NCBI GenBank assembly: GCA_013314735.1 | Contig: JABUFD010000002.1 | Span: 124,001-188,000, forward strand | DNA length: 64,000 bases | Direction of reading: 5' to 3' | DNA from: Anaerolineae bacterium | Lineage (GTDB): Bacteria; Chloroflexota; Anaerolineae; Anaerolineales; Anaerolineaceae | Shown: positions 7,047 to 60,553 of the stretch, in pieces | Layout: each line of letters opens with the position of its first letter | Numbering within the stretch: the stretch's first letter is position 1 | Program-made: the position numbers and the translations under genes | The notes under the pieces: generated by a model | Databases searched by the model: none | What the model was told of the DNA's origin: nothing | What the model saw: only the letters and a program-made list of their open reading frames with translations

Positions 7047-9794
7047 ATGAACAACTGGTTTCAAAAAACAACGGAAGAAATTCTTAAGGAGGCACAAACA
7101 GATACCGAGCATGGTTTGACTCCTGAAGAAGCCGCTTCGCGGCTGCAAAAGTATGGACCCAATGAACTGATCGACCGGGGCACCAAAAGTCCGTGGAAAA
7201 TCCTGGCTGAACAGTTCACTGAGACAATGGTGGTGATGTTGATCATCTCCGCAGTGATTACCCTGGTCCTGGGAGAATTCAAAGATGCGATTGCGATCCT
7301 GGTGATTGTTTTGCTAAATTCAGCGCTGGGTTTCACCCAGGAATACCGCGCCGAAAAGGCGATGGCTGCCCTCAAGAAGATGGCGGTTCCCAAAGTGCGG
7401 GTCCGGCGCGGTGGGAGCATATCCGAAGTACCCGCCCAGCAGCTGGTGCCTGGCGATATTGTATTATTGGAGGCCGGCAATGCCATTCCTGCGGATGGCA
7501 GCCTGCTGGAAAGTTTTAACTTCCGCATTCAGGAAGCAGTCCTCACCGGTGAATCAGAACCTGTGGAGAAAAACACGCAGGTTATTACAAAAGAAAACCC
7601 CTCGCTTGGTGATCAGCATAACCGTGTATTCATGGGAACCGTGGCGACCTACGGTCGTGCTGTGGCGGTGGTAACTGAAACAGGGATGCAAACCGAATTG
7701 GGAAAAATTGCTGAGATGATCCAGTCGGTGACTGCTGAGTCCACCCCCTTGCAGCGCCGCCTGGCGCAGTTGGGCAAGACGTTGGCGTTTGTCGCGCTGG
7801 GGATTGTCGCTGTGGTTATGGTTTTGGGTTTGCTGCGCGGTGAAGGATTGCGCTCGCTGTTCCTGACGGCAATCAGTATGGCGGTGGCGGCGGTTCCTGA
7901 AGGTTTGCCGGCAGTTGTGACAATCGCCCTGGCGATTGGTGCCCAGCGCATGCTGAAACGCAACTCGTTGATTCGGAAATTACCCGCGGTGGAAACCCTC
8001 GGCTCGGTGACAACGATCTGTTCCGATAAAACTGGTACGCTGACCGAGAACCGGATGACAGTAACCATGGTCGATGTGGCTGGCAATCGCCTCGATTTGC
8101 AGGAATCGCTGCATAATTTCAGCCCGACTGTCAGCAAAACCGCTTCAATAGCTCCAGTGATTGACCAGAACCATGCCGTTGCCCTGATGCTGGCGGGTGG
8201 GGCACTCTGCAACGATGCCATCCTCGAACAACGCGATCAGGAATTCACCGCGGTTGGCGATCCGACGGAGGGTGCGTTGGTGGTGGCTGCGGTTCGTGCC
8301 GGATTTTGGAAAAGTGCATTGGAACAGGCGTTGCCGCGTGTGGCAGAACTCCCATTTGATTCTGATCGGAAACGGATGAGCACAATCCACCAGATACAGG
8401 ACCTTGCCCAACTGCCAGATGTGCTGCAGGCATTGATCGCTTCGCCCGTTTTTGGGCAGGAGGGCTCCCACCTGATGCTCACCAAGGGCGCAGTTGACGG
8501 TCTATTGGAAATTACTGACCGTGTATGGGCGGATGGCCGCATGGTGCCGATGGATGAAGCCTGGAGAAAACGGATTCAGGATGCCAATAATGATCTAGCC
8601 CAAAAGGGGATGCGTGTGCTGGGGGTGGCACTGCGCCAATGCGATTGGAATGATGGCCAGCCTGTATCCGAGGAGATGGAACAGGCACTGGTGTTTGTCG
8701 GCATGTTTGCGATGATCGATCCCGCCAGACCGGAAGTGCGTGAAGCGGTGAAAACAGCGAAAGAAGCTGGTGTGCGCCCAATCATGATTACGGGCGATCA
8801 TCCTCTGACGGCCCTGCATATCGCGAAAGAACTGGGCATTGCCGAGAATGATGAGGTAGTCACCGGTGCCGAGTTGGCCAGGATGGAACTGGTTGAGCTG
8901 AAGCAGCGGGTAAAGAATGTTTCTGTCTTTGCCCGGGTTGCCCCAGAGCATAAGCTAAATATTGTCAATGCGCTGCAGGACCAGGGTCAGATTGTTGCCA
9001 TGACTGGCGATGGTGTGAATGACGCACCGGCGTTGAAAAAAGCGGATATTGGGGTTGCGATGGGCATCACTGGAACCGATGTTTCCAAGGAAGCTGCTGA
9101 TATGGTGCTGCTGGATGACAATTTTGCCACGATTGTTTCCGCTGTCAGGGAAGGGCGGCGGATTTATGAAAATATCCGGAAGTTTGTGAAATATACACTT
9201 ACATCCAATTTCGGTGAAATCGTGGTGATGCTGGTCGGTCCGTTTGTCGGCCTTGGGTTACCCTTGTTACCGTTGCAAATACTATGGGTGAACCTGGTGA
9301 CTGACGGACTGCCCGGTTTGGCATTGACACAGGAACCAGCGGAACCTGATACCATGCGTCGACCACCGCGAAATCCCAGGGAACAGATGGTCGGGCGGGG
9401 CCTTGGCGTTGATGTCCTGTGGGTGGGCGGCTTGATGGGTTTGATATCACTGCTGGTGGGATTGTGGGCCTTCCATTTCGATCACGCGCCAGCGTGGCAG
9501 ACGATGATCTTCACCACGCTGACCCTGGCGCAAATGGGCAACGCTTTGGCAACCCGCTCAGAACGCCAGACATTGCTGGAAGCCGGGCTGCTGACCAACA
9601 AAGCGTTATTGGGTGCTGTACTGCTGACCTTTGGCTTACAAATGGCGGTAGTCTATGTGCCCTTCCTCCAGGTGATCTTTAAGACAAAAGCGCTGACCTT
9701 ATCGGAATTGGGTATCAGTCTTGCCGCCTCAGTGATCGTTCTGCTGGTGATTGACGGCGTGAAGTTGCTCAAACGAGCGATTGCCAGACGATAA
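7047..9794 (+). CDS. P2-type cation-translocating ATPase, probable Mn2+/Ca2+ exporter
   Basis: A 915-residue membrane pump. Order: N-terminal cation-ATPase domain (HGLTPEEAASRL), actuator domain with LTGESEPVEK, M4 motif VPEGLPAVV, phosphorylation site SDKTGTLTEN (Asp327), nucleotide domain, hinge MTGDGVNDAPALKKADIG, and C-terminal helices with NLVTDGLPGLAL. The PEGLP and N..TD motifs mark the P2A Ca2+/Mn2+ pumps. A manganese riboswitch directly upstream makes Mn2+ efflux the likely role (inference), as for other riboswitch-linked pumps of this type. GGAG lies before the ATG, and the gene is monocistronic with a strong terminator behind it. Confidence 0.92.
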   Translation: MNNWFQKTTEEILKEAQTDTEHGLTPEEAASRLQKYGPNELIDRGTKSPWKILAEQFTETMVVMLIISAVITLVLGEFKDAIAILVIVLLNSALGFTQEYRAEKAMAALKKMAVPKVRVRRGGSISEVPAQQLVPGDIVLLEAGNAIPADGSLLESFNFRIQEAVLTGESEPVEKNTQVITKENPSLGDQHNRVFMGTVATYGRAVAVVTETGMQTELGKIAEMIQSVTAESTPLQRRLAQLGKTLAFVALGIVAVVMVLGLLRGEGLRSLFLTAISMAVAAVPEGLPAVVTIALAIGAQRMLKRNSLIRKLPAVETLGSVTTICSDKTGTLTENRMTVTMVDVAGNRLDLQESLHNFSPTVSKTASIAPVIDQNHAVALMLAGGALCNDAILEQRDQEFTAVGDPTEGALVVAAVRAGFWKSALEQALPRVAELPFDSDRKRMSTIHQIQDLAQLPDVLQALIASPVFGQEGSHLMLTKGAVDGLLEITDRVWADGRMVPMDEAWRKRIQDANNDLAQKGMRVLGVALRQCDWNDGQPVSEEMEQALVFVGMFAMIDPARPEVREAVKTAKEAGVRPIMITGDHPLTALHIAKELGIAENDEVVTGAELARMELVELKQRVKNVSVFARVAPEHKLNIVNALQDQGQIVAMTGDGVNDAPALKKADIGVAMGITGTDVSKEAADMVLLDDNFATIVSAVREGRRIYENIRKFVKYTLTSNFGEIVVMLVGPFVGLGLPLLPLQILWVNLVTDGLPGLALTQEPAEPDTMRRPPRNPREQMVGRGLGVDVLWVGGLMGLISLLVGLWAFHFDHAPAWQTMIFTTLTLAQMGNALATRSERQTLLEAGLLTNKALLGAVLLTFGLQMAVVYVPFLQVIFKTKALTLSELGISLAASVIVLLVIDGVKLLKRAIARR

Positions 9795-45544: not shown

Positions 45545-45548
45545 AAGC

Positions 45549-45597
45549 TGGTCGGGGCGAGAAGATTCGAACTTCCGACCTCTTGCACCCCATGCAA
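45549..45597 (-). other. 3' half of tRNA-Pro(GGG), prophage attachment site (attL)
   Basis: On the minus strand: anticodon-loop side TTGC-ATGGGGT-GCAAG (anticodon GGG), extra loop, T arm GGAAG-TTCGAAT-CTTCT, acceptor 3' strand CGCCCCG, discriminator A and encoded CCA. The 5' half (acceptor, D arm, first anticodon-stem base) is absent and replaced by unrelated sequence from 45598. This is the signature of integration into a tRNA gene, with the intact gene rebuilt at the other end outside the window. Confidence 0.85.
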
Positions 45598-48155: not shown

Positions 48156-49043
48156 TTGAGTGTCGATATGTGGATCAATGAAGTAGTGTGTTCAGCCGAA
48201 ATGGCGAAATATTCCGAGAATACTATTTCCGCACTGGAGCGGGACCTGATGGTATTCTCGGATTGGTTTGAGGAGGAAAATGGCGAGGTGTTCCTCCCAG
48301 AGAAATTGACAAATTATGATGTGCGCCGGTTTCGAAAATTCCAGCTGGAGCAGGCGCGGGTAAGCGCCGCCACCTGGAACCGACGAATGTGGTCACTGGG
48401 GCTGTTGGCTGACTGGTGCCAGGCGCGGGGGTATGTGAAAACGAGCCCAATGGAAGATATTGAAGGGGTGGCTGTGCAAGCGCTGGCGCCGAAGTGGTTG
48501 TCGAAAAGTGATTGGGCACGGTTCATGCGCCAGGTTGAGCGGGATGTGAACGCAGCATCAACGAGCCTTCAGATTACCACGGCGAAGCGGGATCAGGCGA
48601 TGGTGGGGTTTATGGCGTTCGCGGGCTTGCGTGAAGGTGAGTTGGTGCAGATCAGGGCAACGGATGTGGTGCTGCGCGAACGGAGCGGTTGGGTGTTGCT
48701 GAAGGCAGACATTACCAAAGGGGAGAAGGAGCGGATTGTGCCGTTGAGCCGTGAAGCGCGGCGGATGATCGAACCGTGGATGGATATGAGCAGCAGCGAG
48801 GTGCTGTTCCCGATGACAGAGCGGAATGTGCAGCTGCGGGTGCGGGCGATCAGTGACCGGGCGGGGTGTGATGCCCAGGTGGCACCGCATATGCTGCGGC
48901 ACTCGTTTGCAAAGCGGATGGCGGACAAGGGGGTGCGGGATACCGAGATCGCAGACCTGTTGGGTCATAGTTCATTGGACACGACGAAACGTTACACACG
49001 TCCGGGGATTGATGACCTGGCAGAAGCGGTGGAGCTGGTATAG
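48156..49043 (+). CDS. int: Tyrosine recombinase (phage integrase, XerC-like)
   Basis: 295 residues: N-terminal SAM-like core-binding domain (ENTISALERDLMVFSDWF) and catalytic domain with Arg159 (GLREGEL), His245 and Arg248 (HMLRH), His271 (LLGHSS) and the nucleophile Tyr280 (TKRYTRP). It integrates the prophage at tRNA-Pro. Start may be TTG 48156 or ATG 48168; neither has a strong ribosome site. Unusually it lies about 2.6 kb inside the element rather than next to the att site. Confidence 0.93.
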   Translation: MSVDMWINEVVCSAEMAKYSENTISALERDLMVFSDWFEEENGEVFLPEKLTNYDVRRFRKFQLEQARVSAATWNRRMWSLGLLADWCQARGYVKTSPMEDIEGVAVQALAPKWLSKSDWARFMRQVERDVNAASTSLQITTAKRDQAMVGFMAFAGLREGELVQIRATDVVLRERSGWVLLKADITKGEKERIVPLSREARRMIEPWMDMSSSEVLFPMTERNVQLRVRAISDRAGCDAQVAPHMLRHSFAKRMADKGVRDTEIADLLGHSSLDTTKRYTRPGIDDLAEAVELV

Positions 49044-58185: not shown

Positions 58186-58234
58186 GGCAGGGCCTGTGAG
58201 GGGCAGGAAGGCGGGGCGGGCAGAAATGCCGGAC

Positions 58235-58271
58235 GGGCAGAAATGCTGCACTTCGTTCCGCTTTTCTGCCC
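58235..58271 (+). repeat. Hairpin repeat of the GGGCAGAAA family
   Basis: GGGCAGAAA (58235-58243) pairs with TTTCTGCCC (58263-58271). A partial copy GGGCAGAAATGCC starts at 58218. A longer relative with a CTTCGACAGGCTCAG insert is at 60476-60525. Confidence 0.75.
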
Positions 58272-58361
58272 CTACCGGGGAAACTTTTGTGTTCATTCAT
58301 TTGCGGTAATCAAGTACAATAATAAAAATTCACTCATTTAGTTAATGAAAGGGGTCACACC

Positions 58362-59042
58362 ATGAATCGAAAATCAAAACTGTACGTTATCCTGTTTGTG
58401 TTCGCTGTGTTTTTGTCCAGTTGCGGGGAAAAACCGCCAATAATTGATTATTCGCCAACCATATCTGCATTGGAAACCCAAGTGGCCAGGAACATTGTGG
58501 TTCTCTCTACAAAGGAAACTGAGTTGGAGAGTATGATGTACGAGAATGAAAGCCTGGATGAAGCATTAACAGCGGAAAAAGAGATTGTCAGCACCTTGGC
58601 TGCCTCTGAAGCTGAACTGTCTGATCAACTATTGGAGAAGAATGATGATGGGGAAGCGCTGAGAGCGATGGTGCAGGAATATCACGACCTGTTTATGGCG
58701 GTACAAGGGGACAAGCAGGGAGAATATGTTTTTTGCACCTATGCTTTTGAACGAACCTTTGCATATATTGATAAAGTTTCGATGCGAACAGAACTGGCCC
58801 AATATGTGGCTTCGGTAATGGGTATCAATGCGGACAGCATCCAGACCCAGCATCAAATGATCTGGGGTAATACTGATGATGGACTGATCAAAGTGTTTGC
58901 CGGTGGTTATATGTATCCATTTATCGTCCGGTTTGAAGATGCAGAGTTTGGTACCGAGGATTCAGTGTATTCTTTGGCCTCTGGTTGTTTTGTGGATTAC
59001 CCAGCACTGGAAGAAAATTTTCTGTCGGTTGAGGGAAACTAA
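58362..59042 (+). CDS. Prophage lipoprotein with coiled coil (moron candidate)
   Basis: 226 residues: signal LYVILFVFAVFLSSC with Cys21, then a coiled coil (ISALETQVARNIVVLSTKETELESM and beyond) and a compact C-terminal domain. Surface exposed. It is AT-richer than the phage genes around it, has its own upstream spacing with a possible -10 TACAAT near 58316, and is flanked by a repeat and by an independent RNA. Such genes often alter the lysogen surface or block superinfection (inference). Confidence 0.7.
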   Translation: MNRKSKLYVILFVFAVFLSSCGEKPPIIDYSPTISALETQVARNIVVLSTKETELESMMYENESLDEALTAEKEIVSTLAASEAELSDQLLEKNDDGEALRAMVQEYHDLFMAVQGDKQGEYVFCTYAFERTFAYIDKVSMRTELAQYVASVMGINADSIQTQHQMIWGNTDDGLIKVFAGGYMYPFIVRFEDAEFGTEDSVYSLASGCFVDYPALEENFLSVEGN

Positions 59043-59057
59043 ACAACATCATATGTG

Positions 59058-59086
59058 TTGAAAAGTGTATGAAAATAGCTTATAAT
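59058..59086 (+). promoter_or_regulatory. Promoter of the structured leader RNA
   Basis: TTGAAA (59058-59063), exactly 17 bases, TATAAT (59081-59086): near consensus. Start expected near 59093, at the first base pair of the long helix. Confidence 0.8.
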
Positions 59087-59092
59087 GTAAAT

Positions 59093-59235
59093 GTAGCTCG
59101 CAACTATATATGACGCGGTTTTTCTTCTTAAAACCATGTCCGTAAATTAATTTATGGGAAAAGTCCCGCGTATGGTCTGAAGTTCCGTGTCTGGTAGTTG
59201 CGAGCTCCACATGGTAGACCTACGCGGGATTTTTT
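59093..59235 (+). ncRNA. Structured leader RNA or small RNA with switch-like alternative helices
   Basis: Helix A, AGCTCGCAACTA (59095-59106) with TAGTTGCGAGCT (59195-59206), encloses helix B, ACGCGG (59113-59118) with CCGCGT (59166-59171), and hairpin C, CCGTAAA-TTAA-TTTATGG (59140-59157). A terminator helix, TCCCGCGTA..GGTCT (59164-59178) with AGACCTACGCGGGA (59216-59229), uses the right arm of helix B and crosses helix A, then six T. A third AGCTCGCAA (59250-59258) covers the ribosome site of the next gene and can pair with 59198-59206. No known family recognised. Confidence 0.75.
59164..59235 (+). terminator. Terminator of the structured leader RNA
   Basis: A 14-bp stem with one bulged base (59164-59178 with 59216-59229) and T6 at 59230-59235; its loop holds the right arm of helix A. 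Confidence 0.75.
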
Positions 59236-59259
59236 CATTTACCAAAAGGAGCTCGCAAA

Positions 59260-59568
59260 ATGACTGAATCGATGGAAGTGATGGTGTATGCAGGGGAAAG
59301 TGAGTACCCGGAGAAGCTGGAGCAGGATGCGGTGCAGGGGCGGAAGGTGCCGCTGTGGATGCTGGAACTGCTGATGGAGCAATATGAGAATATGTTCGAG
59401 GAGCAGTGCCCGGAGTGGTTTGCGGCGGTGGAGGATTTGATCCTGATCGTGGAGGCGGTGACGCAGGTGCGGACCCTGGGGGCGATGGAGACGGTGACGG
59501 CGGCGTGCATTGGACAGGAGTTGTTTGACCTGCTGGCGATGGTGAAGCGGCAGGAACCGGTGATATGA
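59260..59568 (+). CDS. Hypothetical phage protein under the structured leader
   Basis: 102 residues, acidic and helical (MTESMEVMVYAGESEYPEKL, then LWMLELLMEQYENMFEEQCP). The ribosome site AAGGAG (59247-59251) is embedded in a 9-base copy of the leader's helix-A arm. Unknown function. Confidence 0.65.
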   Translation: MTESMEVMVYAGESEYPEKLEQDAVQGRKVPLWMLELLMEQYENMFEEQCPEWFAAVEDLILIVEAVTQVRTLGAMETVTAACIGQELFDLLAMVKRQEPVI

Positions 59569-60312: not shown

Positions 60313-60354
60313 GGGGTGGATGGAAAAATTGTTCTAGATTGTTTGTGTTGCAAC

Positions 60355-60394
60355 TTGACAGATTGTGTTAAAATTGATATAGCGTACTTAGTAC
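60355..60394 (+). promoter_or_regulatory. Late promoter with repressor operator
   Basis: TTGACA (60355-60360), 17 bases, TATAGC (60378-60383), then CGTACTTAGTAC (60383-60394) over the start point. This is the CGTAC-N3-GTAC site of the switch region, placed as operator 2 is there. Confidence 0.78.
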
Positions 60395-60414
60395 TATAAA
60401 AATACTCTCCAATG

Positions 60415-60452
60415 AAACCCCGGTTTGCAGAAAAACTGCGAACCGGGGTTTT
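60415..60452 (+). terminator. Terminator immediately downstream of the late promoter
   Basis: 16-bp stem (60415-60430 with 60436-60451, one U.G), starting AAACCCCGG, loop AAAAA, ending in TTTT. It lies about 25 bases after the predicted start, so late transcription needs read-through or antitermination. Confidence 0.82.
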
Positions 60453-60475
60453 GGCATTTAACAAGTAATTAATGC

Positions 60476-60525
60476 GGGCAGAAATGCTGCGCTTCGACAG
60501 GCTCAGCGACCACGCTTTTCTGCCC
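60476..60525 (+). repeat. REP-like hairpin with CTTCGACAGGCTCAG core
   Basis: Outer arms GGGCAGAAA/TTTCTGCCC, inner CTTCGACAGGCTCAGCGACC. Related to the elements at 55195 and 58235. Confidence 0.75.
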
Positions 60526-60553
60526 CTACGAGATGATGAAAGGAACCTGACAA

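Follow-up and report, generated by a model that had tools for sequence, protein, structure and literature searches.

A probable leader-RNA switch with an antisense-immunity layout, present in three copies in an Anaerolineae prophage

A prophage of an Anaerolineae bacterium carries three cassettes, each comprised of a promoter, a leader RNA and a gene for an acidic protein of ~100 aa. One internal strand of the leader is complementary both to the 5' end of the transcript and to the Shine-Dalgarno (SD) region of the gene, and all three sites have changed together from cassette to cassette. The sequence makes it rather probable, if well short of certain, that the element is a prophage leader-RNA switch of the layout known from antisense immunity. 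That it acts as a switch at all is something we infer, with reasonable support. The first cassette has its leader at positions 59058 to 59262 of the window, which is the whole stretch of 64,000 nucleotides that was analyzed; coordinates prefixed C11 refer to the contig that contains it. The sequence-only reading had called this RNA unrecognized, and the covariance search against Rfam agrees, with nothing above cut-off; overlaps with mir-2513, mir-1784 and trpB at E values of 0.09 to 8.6 are taken as chance.

Parts and helices of the leader RNA

The first cassette contains the following parts.

59058-59086, + strand: promoter TTGAAA-17-TATAAT (TTGAAA 59058-59063, TATAAT 59081-59086), 11 of 12 consensus matches
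59095-59106, + strand: P1a, the 5' arm AGCTCGCAACTA; upstream copy, like b1 of C4 and seqA of phage P4
59112-59118, + strand: P2a, GACGCGG; partner either Ta (CCGCGT) or CCGTGTC; its ACGCGG is common to the terminator 3' arm
59133-59139, + strand: P4a, ACCATGT; partner ACATGGT at 59209-59215; base 59139 is common to P3
59139-59158, + strand: P3 hairpin, 59139-59146 with 59151-59158, 8 bp including an outer U.G
59164-59178, + strand: Ta, 5' arm of the intrinsic terminator, TCCCGCGTA-T-GGTCT (TCCCGCGTA 59164-59172, GGTCT 59174-59178)
59185-59191, + strand: P2'b, CCGTGTC, alternative partner of P2a
59195-59208, + strand: P1b plus CC (TAGTTGCGAGCTCC), the shared anti-SD strand; like b' of C4 and seqB of phage P4
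59209-59215, + strand: P4b, ACATGGT, partner of P4a
59216-59235, + strand: Tb, terminator 3' arm with T6 (AGACC 59216-59220, TACGCGGGA 59221-59229, T6 59230-59235)
59248-59258, + strand: GGAGCTCGCAA, the SD overlapped by the second arm copy; pairs with P1b plus CC over 11 bp; like b2 of C4 and seqC of phage P4
59260-59568, + strand: putative controlled gene for a 102-aa acidic protein (pI 4.05), no family above cut-off

The promoter, the 12-bp helix P1 (59095-59106 with 59195-59206) and the 6-bp helix of ACGCGG (59113-59118) with CCGCGT (59166-59171) had been read from the letters before and are present as described; P1 is Watson-Crick paired throughout. The hairpin given as 7 bp exists and reaches 8 bp when the outer U.G is counted. 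The terminator with its T6 likewise exists, overlaps the inner helix and crosses P1 as claimed, but its stem is not an unbroken 14 bp: it is formed by 9 + 5 bp with one bulged T. Its loop of 37 nt, against a maximum of 8 in the simple terminator scan, explains why that scan misses it. What had been described as three copies of one arm are three sites, two of them same-sense copies and one a complementary copy. The 9-base copy at the SD of the next gene is AGCTCGCAA (59250-59258), immediately 3' of the GG of the SD. Since the arm copy continues this GG, P1b plus CC can cover GGAGCTCGCAA, and the pairing extends to 11 bp (TTGCGAGCTCC with GGAGCTCGCAA), which the sequence-only reading had not listed.

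Two further pairings were absent from that reading. The strand 59112-59118 is also complementary to CCGTGTC at 59185-59191, and P4a with P4b forms a possible pseudoknot, a candidate whose CCATG/CATGG is kept in all three copies. The leader thus has two central strands, each with an upstream and a downstream partner: Ta with P2a or Tb, and P1b with P1a or the SD. The transcript of the window cassette probably starts at about 59093, where GTAG begins; GTAG starts 6 nt past the -10 hexamer in each of the three cassettes. The fold of 59093-59236 has a z score of -5.7, and none of 200 shuffled sequences is as stable.

Three cassettes in one prophage

Two further cassettes, which the sequence-only reading did not contain, lie ~13.6 and ~22.2 kb downstream of the window copy.

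45548-45597 (C11:169548-169597), no strand: left att repeat, 50 bp, with an identical copy at C11:206963-207012 in tRNA-Pro
C11:196706-196872: cassette copy 2, 74% identity to the window copy (E 1e-20)
C11:205312-205456, extending to the gene start: cassette copy 3, detected by a protein profile and, in a separate search, by the RNA model of the other two copies alone

All three cassettes lie between the att repeats and therefore belong to one prophage of ~37.5 kb, which bears out the prophage location proposed earlier. The prophage contains genes for terminase, portal, capsid, endolysin and integrase. Copy 2 stands directly 3' of a 334-aa late gene without family match, taken as a tail gene by its position, and copy 3 adjoins the right-end integrase. 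Two integrases are present: one near the left end (window 48156-49043, PHROG) and one on the opposite strand by the att site in tRNA-Pro (C11:205893-207008, Pfam Phage_integrase, E 1.4e-34).

The leaders are conserved at least as well as the genes in every pair. Leader identities for copies 1-2, 1-3 and 2-3 are 78.0, 71.3 and 68.2% (60 to 61% when shuffled), and gene identities are 71.9, 69.2 and 68.0% (64 to 65% when shuffled). The 250 to 300 bp flanking the cassettes are at about the shuffled level, with the exception of the region upstream of copies 2 and 3, which shows 74% identity and is another common repeat. The promoter of copy 3 scores 9 of 12 in the simple scan; for copy 2, the simple scan lists no sigma-70 promoter, and the sequence there is TGC-TACACT with a poor -35. 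The terminator tail of copy 3 is TTTTGT.

Covariation and chance expectation

The 9-letter arm differs in each cassette (AGCTCGCAA, AGCAAGCAA and AGACACGAC in copies 1, 2 and 3). The full arms are AGCTCGCAACTA, AGCAAGCAACTA and AGACACGACTC, and P1b is in every case fully complementary to its arm. The SD regions are GGAGCTCGCAA, GGAGCAAGCAA and GGAGACACGAC. In every cassette the arm and the SD region have 9 letters in common, and P1b plus CC matches the SD region over 11. As the complement and the SD copy change along with the arm in all three, a helix of 12, 12 or 11 bp competes with one of 11 bp in each. Compensatory changes, whose absence the sequence-only reading would have counted against a switch, are thus found: the two paralogues change P1, the helices of the ACGCGG strand, the terminator and the SD copy. 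A covariance model from copies 1 and 2 alone, the kind of check proposed at that stage, recovers copy 3 at E = 6e-13.

In the alignment of the three copies, 7 of the 12 pairs of P1 have changed on both sides with every counted cell paired, a number that depends on gap placement within the copy 3 arm; between copies 1 and 2 alone, 2 of 12 have changed. The whole structure shows 9 pairs changed on both sides, compared to 3.0 after shuffling (none of 500 shuffles is as high) and 0 to 1 in slid controls, in an alignment that was fitted to a model from two of its three copies and is biased towards the structure. Copy 2 has P3 out of register there, with 5 cells unpaired, and copy 3 is gapped at one end pair of P1 and at two pairs of P2'. 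Because the alignment leans towards the structure, the pairs are also listed copy by copy: P2' is GACGCGG/CCGTGTC, GACGCG/CGTGTC and ATAGCAG/CTGCTAT in copies 1, 2 and 3, and P3, the ACCATG/CATGGT pairing and the terminator form in each copy with partly different letters. P2a and Tb have 5 to 6 letters in common (ACGCGG, ACGCG and GCAGG). Since no relatives were met beyond this prophage, the covariation is that of three paralogues. The three-way covariation, together with the covarying terminator, supports a real RNA switch.

A word-blind scan of the 102-kb region for any 9-letter word followed by its reverse complement and by the word again, with no start codon required, returns the three cassettes and nothing else on the + strand; 100 shuffles in 100-bp blocks gave 5 hits (+ strand). 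The three hits on the - strand are the cassettes read backwards. When words of 8 letters and a start codon after the last copy are required, the scan finds 3 places, whereas 20 shuffles in 200-bp blocks give 0.1 hits per strand.

A DNA-binding protein would likewise use one word in inverted and direct copies, with the arms as operators or iterons of cassette-specific specificity and the RNA pairing incidental. The RNA model does match the reverse strand of the window element as well (28.8 bits, which is usual for long inverted repeats), and palindromic GTAC-type sites occur near several prophage promoters. Such a DNA-level element is nevertheless very improbable in our estimation: a second same-sense copy sits on the SD beside the start codon in all three cassettes, the 5' arm lies at the predicted transcript start in all three, and P2', P3 and the terminator of copy 3 hold G.U pairs valid on this strand only (the helices having been chosen with G.U allowed).

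Predicted energies and proposed mechanism

The two duplexes of P1b are balanced. With the SD, P1b reaches -22.2, -20.4 and -22.5 kcal/mol in copies 1, 2 and 3, and with P1a -21.5, -22.0 and -19.0 kcal/mol, differences of 0.7, 1.6 and 3.5 kcal/mol. Non-cognate pairs of P1b and SD reach -7.1 to -15.1 kcal/mol, which is 5.6 to 15.4 weaker than the cassette's own; with a private arm sequence in each cassette, the three circuits would therefore be largely insulated from one another. Before Tb is transcribed, the combination of P1, P2' and P3 is the best or near-best fold (-45.5 compared to a best of -46.1, -40.4 compared to -42.8, and -40.8, itself the best). Once Tb is present, the terminator fold is the best at -52.7, -55.0 and -49.1, compared to -47.4, -44.9 and -47.1, an advantage of 5.3, 10.1 and 2.0 kcal/mol with pseudoknots ignored.

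These values are compatible with a working in two layers. Transcription would begin at P1a and by default stop at the terminator, leaving an RNA of ~140 nt; with most transcripts ending there, the small gene would normally be off. In a read-through transcript, a closed P1 would occupy P1b and leave the SD free, the ON state. Where P1a is unavailable, or where the terminated short RNA offers its own P1b, the SD would be covered, the OFF state. In this reading, termination is the default and a second lock acts on translation. In cis, P1 forms before the SD is transcribed, so the SD should rarely invade and repression would require some additional event. The lock therefore makes most sense with P1a removed or occupied, for instance by P1b of another, terminated RNA copy. 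A leader peptide is not favored, as the leader AUGs lack an SD and their frames differ among the copies (by eye). One AUG within the copy 2 leader does, however, begin a 138-aa frame that runs uninterrupted into the gene, and in copy 3 the gene can be extended in frame by 10 codons.

Occupation of P1a by P1b of another RNA would be the logic of C4 and CI, which favors a contribution in trans. An additional action of the terminated RNA in trans, on the mRNA of its own cassette, appears about as likely as a purely cis-acting attenuator. The latter would resemble a riboswitch: the fold of P1, P2, P3 and P4, stabilized by a ligand or by the encoded protein, would block the terminator and free the SD, with the short RNA as a by-product. 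The nested P1, P2 and P3 would indeed withdraw Ta and P1b from their OFF partners, and in copies 1 and 3 the core fold differs rather little in energy from the terminator fold. The conserved UUAA and GGGNRAAGUCC outside the main helices, together with the CCAUG/CAUGG invariant in all three copies, resemble a folded core. However, a ligand switch has no need of arms diverged to private sequences, three copies of one such switch in a prophage would be unusual in our judgement, and before Tb the variant with P1 and P2 is 4.5 to 10.5 kcal/mol weaker than that with P1 and P2'. No Rfam riboswitch matches the element. We regard a purely cis-acting leader as possible but on the doubtful side.

Comparison with known RNA elements

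The antisense-immunity reading draws on the C4 RNA of phages P1 and P7 and the CI RNA of phage P4. For control, stretches of phages P1 and P4 chosen for the known loci were scanned with the spacing widened and the start-codon requirement dropped. In phage P1, words of 7 letters, and none longer, return the two target sets of the annotation and nothing else: a1 48255, a' 48393 and a2 48423, and b1 48269, b' 48380 and b2 48452, with the start of icd at 48470 in the record annotation. In phage P4, 8-letter words return, apart from origin repeats that are unrelated, one set: TTCACAGG occurs at 8651 and again at 8384, where it sits on the SD of an ATG, and the complement lies at 8463. We take these three places to be seqA, seqB and seqC. 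In the literature, seqA and seqC flank CI upstream and downstream (PMC4825925). The Rfam models of isrK and C4 cover the first two phage P4 places: C4 (RF01695) matches phage P4 at 6e-14 and phage P1 at 2e-12, and isrK (RF01394) matches phage P4 at 1.1e-11. For the three cassettes, neither model gives a match up to E = 10, and the cassette RNA model matches neither phage P4 nor phage P1.

All three cassettes show the layout of C4, with an upstream arm, an internal complement and a second copy at the ribosome-binding site (RBS) of a small gene. In C4 of phages P1 and P7 (RF01695; c4-a1b1, RF03163), a1 and b1 likewise stand upstream, a' and b' inside and a2 and b2 ahead of and at the beginning of the small gene icd, within a single leader. 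Two word families are also present here, the 9-nt arm and the 5- to 6-nt word common to P2a and the terminator arm. In contrast to C4, the complementary strand of the cassettes pairs over a full 12 bp with the very 5' end, and an intrinsic terminator makes use of these strands too. The order of the upstream copies is reversed, and three paralogous sets occur in one prophage. C4 adopts a three-stem fold with a processing site and yields a processed RNA of ~77 nt; the helices here are others. To our knowledge, the orders that bear C4 are all proteobacterial. A list of bacterial orders carrying C4 is given in PMC5320573, where a 4-nt difference is also said to restrict cross-action between the C4 RNAs of P1 and P7 and many C4 relatives are described within one Acinetobacter genome. 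Going by that paper, neither multiple copies nor arm specificity are therefore new in themselves.

The cassettes resemble the CI locus of phage P4 in the sequence of word, complement and word on an SD before an ATG, but the spacings are ~190 and ~80 nt there and ~100 and ~52 nt here, and CI is processed from a larger transcript according to PMC4825925. In IsrK of Gifsy-1, a short terminated leader and its read-through mRNA also have complementary strands in common, through which the RBS of a small open reading frame is controlled (PMC4825925). There the terminator appears to precede the anti-RBS strand, whereas here it follows it, so that the short RNA holds both arm and anti-arm.

The layout is common to these systems and the Rfam models give no match, so the architecture and probably the logic are common, while no kinship was detected. 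The element thus probably works like C4 and CI, though it is not a detectable member of either family. A further-reaching and more tentative proposal is an independent invention of an immunity RNA of the C4/CI kind, in which the same strand pair governs termination as well as translation and is also the source of a trans-acting repressor; the three mutually insulated copies would then give each of the three sister proteins an RNA code of its own.

The small protein

The three paralogous proteins have 93 to 102 aa and pI values of 4.05 to 4.88; those of copies 2 and 3 are 51% and 44% identical to the window protein. The model of the 102-aa protein is all-helical with low confidence (pLDDT 65.7) and has no fold match at E ≤ 0.001, for which reasons a guess at its function was dropped. 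Pfam, PHROG and PDB sequences give no match above cut-off. A similarity to DUF3861 (E 0.0013) lies below cut-off and occurs in one of the three paralogues.

Promoter, structured RNA, terminator and protein gene also follow one another in type III toxin-antitoxin and AbiF loci, as outlined in PMC12373285, and the gene order and terminator placement are those of ToxIN and AbiF/RCd22. With RNA and protein co-diverged across the three cassettes, the RNA could be an antitoxin that binds the encoded protein. The cassettes differ from these systems in having neither repeated RNA motifs nor a known toxin family: the RNA of copy 1 holds no tandem array, with a two-copy 11-bp match (59055-59075) upstream of the RNA as the only repeat, and none of the three copies has an Rfam antitoxin match. 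The acidic protein, with its low-confidence helical model, shows no known family or fold above cut-off and no match to ToxN, CptN, TenpN or Abi_2 in Pfam, PHROG or PDB sequences. An antitoxin would also leave unexplained why the SD copy tracks the arm, and we judge this reading improbable.

Search for relatives

No earlier description of the element was found in Rfam or among the papers that the literature searches listed. The genome samples of the separate searches overlap. A DNA search of 101 related genomes matched 7, namely the genome itself and 6 with matches of 18 to 27 nt (E 0.008 to 0.08) that are taken as chance. A two-protein profile in 400 genomes of the order found the genome's own three places, and a three-protein profile in 396 genomes of the class likewise found its own only. 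The RNA model returned the genome's own cassettes and 3 weak matches (E 0.05 to 0.97) among 147 genomes of the family; one, on inspection, is a 47-nt match without the arm triple. In 400 genomes of the phylum (the best candidates, at most 7 per genome), it found its own only. A match at E 0.007 among 400 genomes of the order, again from at most the 7 best candidates per genome, was rejected, as it lies by eye in an NAD kinase-like gene with no triple.

Protein-guided scans for the small protein met no true relative in viral or genome contigs; the match in one viral contig (L003) consists of 13 residues inside an otherwise unlike frame of 356 aa. The 334-aa late protein upstream of copy 2 has no relative found either. 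Among 24 viral contigs selected by DNA patterns, none matches the RNA model up to E 10, and two (L024 and L034) hold a chance triple elsewhere on the contig. One viral and 13 genome contigs, also selected by DNA patterns, lack a triple where they match, and the RNA model gives nothing below E 3.6 in them. In 73 terminase-related viral contigs (0.97 Mb), the best model match has an E value of 4.6, and inspection by eye shows the triples there to be repetitive or palindromic sequence or to have no SD. Phage and plasmid collections gave no DNA match; two records matched the protein (E 0.5) inside a capsid gene and were discarded.

Other elements of the prophage

A second repeated element lies directly upstream of cassettes 2 and 3 (C11 ~196461-196595, L002:1256-1390, and ~205126-205255, L012:1136-1265). 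Its sequence, with a promoter-like GTGCTAKACT, a GCCGGTYAGAACCGGY hairpin and, in copy 2, a GCCCAGCGCTCA/TGAGCGCTGGGC stem, is probably transcribed and non-coding; Rfam gives nothing above cut-off for it. A phage tRNA-Thr(CGT) has the anticodon arm CATTCTTCGTAAG (C11:205027-205039), which is exactly complementary over 13 nt to CTTACGAAGAATG (C11:205153-205165) in this second element, ~125 nt downstream of CATTCTTCGTAAG; both words lie within L012:1011-1175. The copy of the element upstream of cassette 2 has a different word there, with no complement within the 102-kb region.

Palindromic GTACNNAGTAC and GTACNNNGTAC sites occur near several prophage promoters (window 60384-60394; C11:170371, 170392, 197204 and 205262), two of them in tandem near the left end of the prophage; they are candidate operators of a phage repressor. 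A similar block follows the genes of cassettes 1 and 2 (window 60350-60455; L002:1975-2145), with a promoter-like TTGAC...TTAAAATTGATATAGCGTACT, a GTAC palindrome and a terminator-like hairpin AACCCCGGTTTGCA...TGCGARCCGGGGTT. The dispersed inverted repeat GGGCAGAAATGCTGC...TTTTCTGCCCCTAC, found at two intergenic places of the prophage (window 58217-58274 and 60476-60529), possibly belongs to a host repeat family. Immediately upstream of the leader element, a 226-aa lipoprotein-like gene (window 58362-59042), whose N-terminus ends in SSCG by eye, shows no convincing family match and is a possible lysogenic-conversion gene.

Significance

C4, CI and IsrK are currently found by family models tied to particular folds. 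The cassettes would present the same logic three times over in an RNA without Rfam match, and their natural compensatory differences amount to a ready supply of mutants. The three are potentially orthogonal natural switches. Such logic may have arisen more than once, and would be detectable by a word-blind scan.
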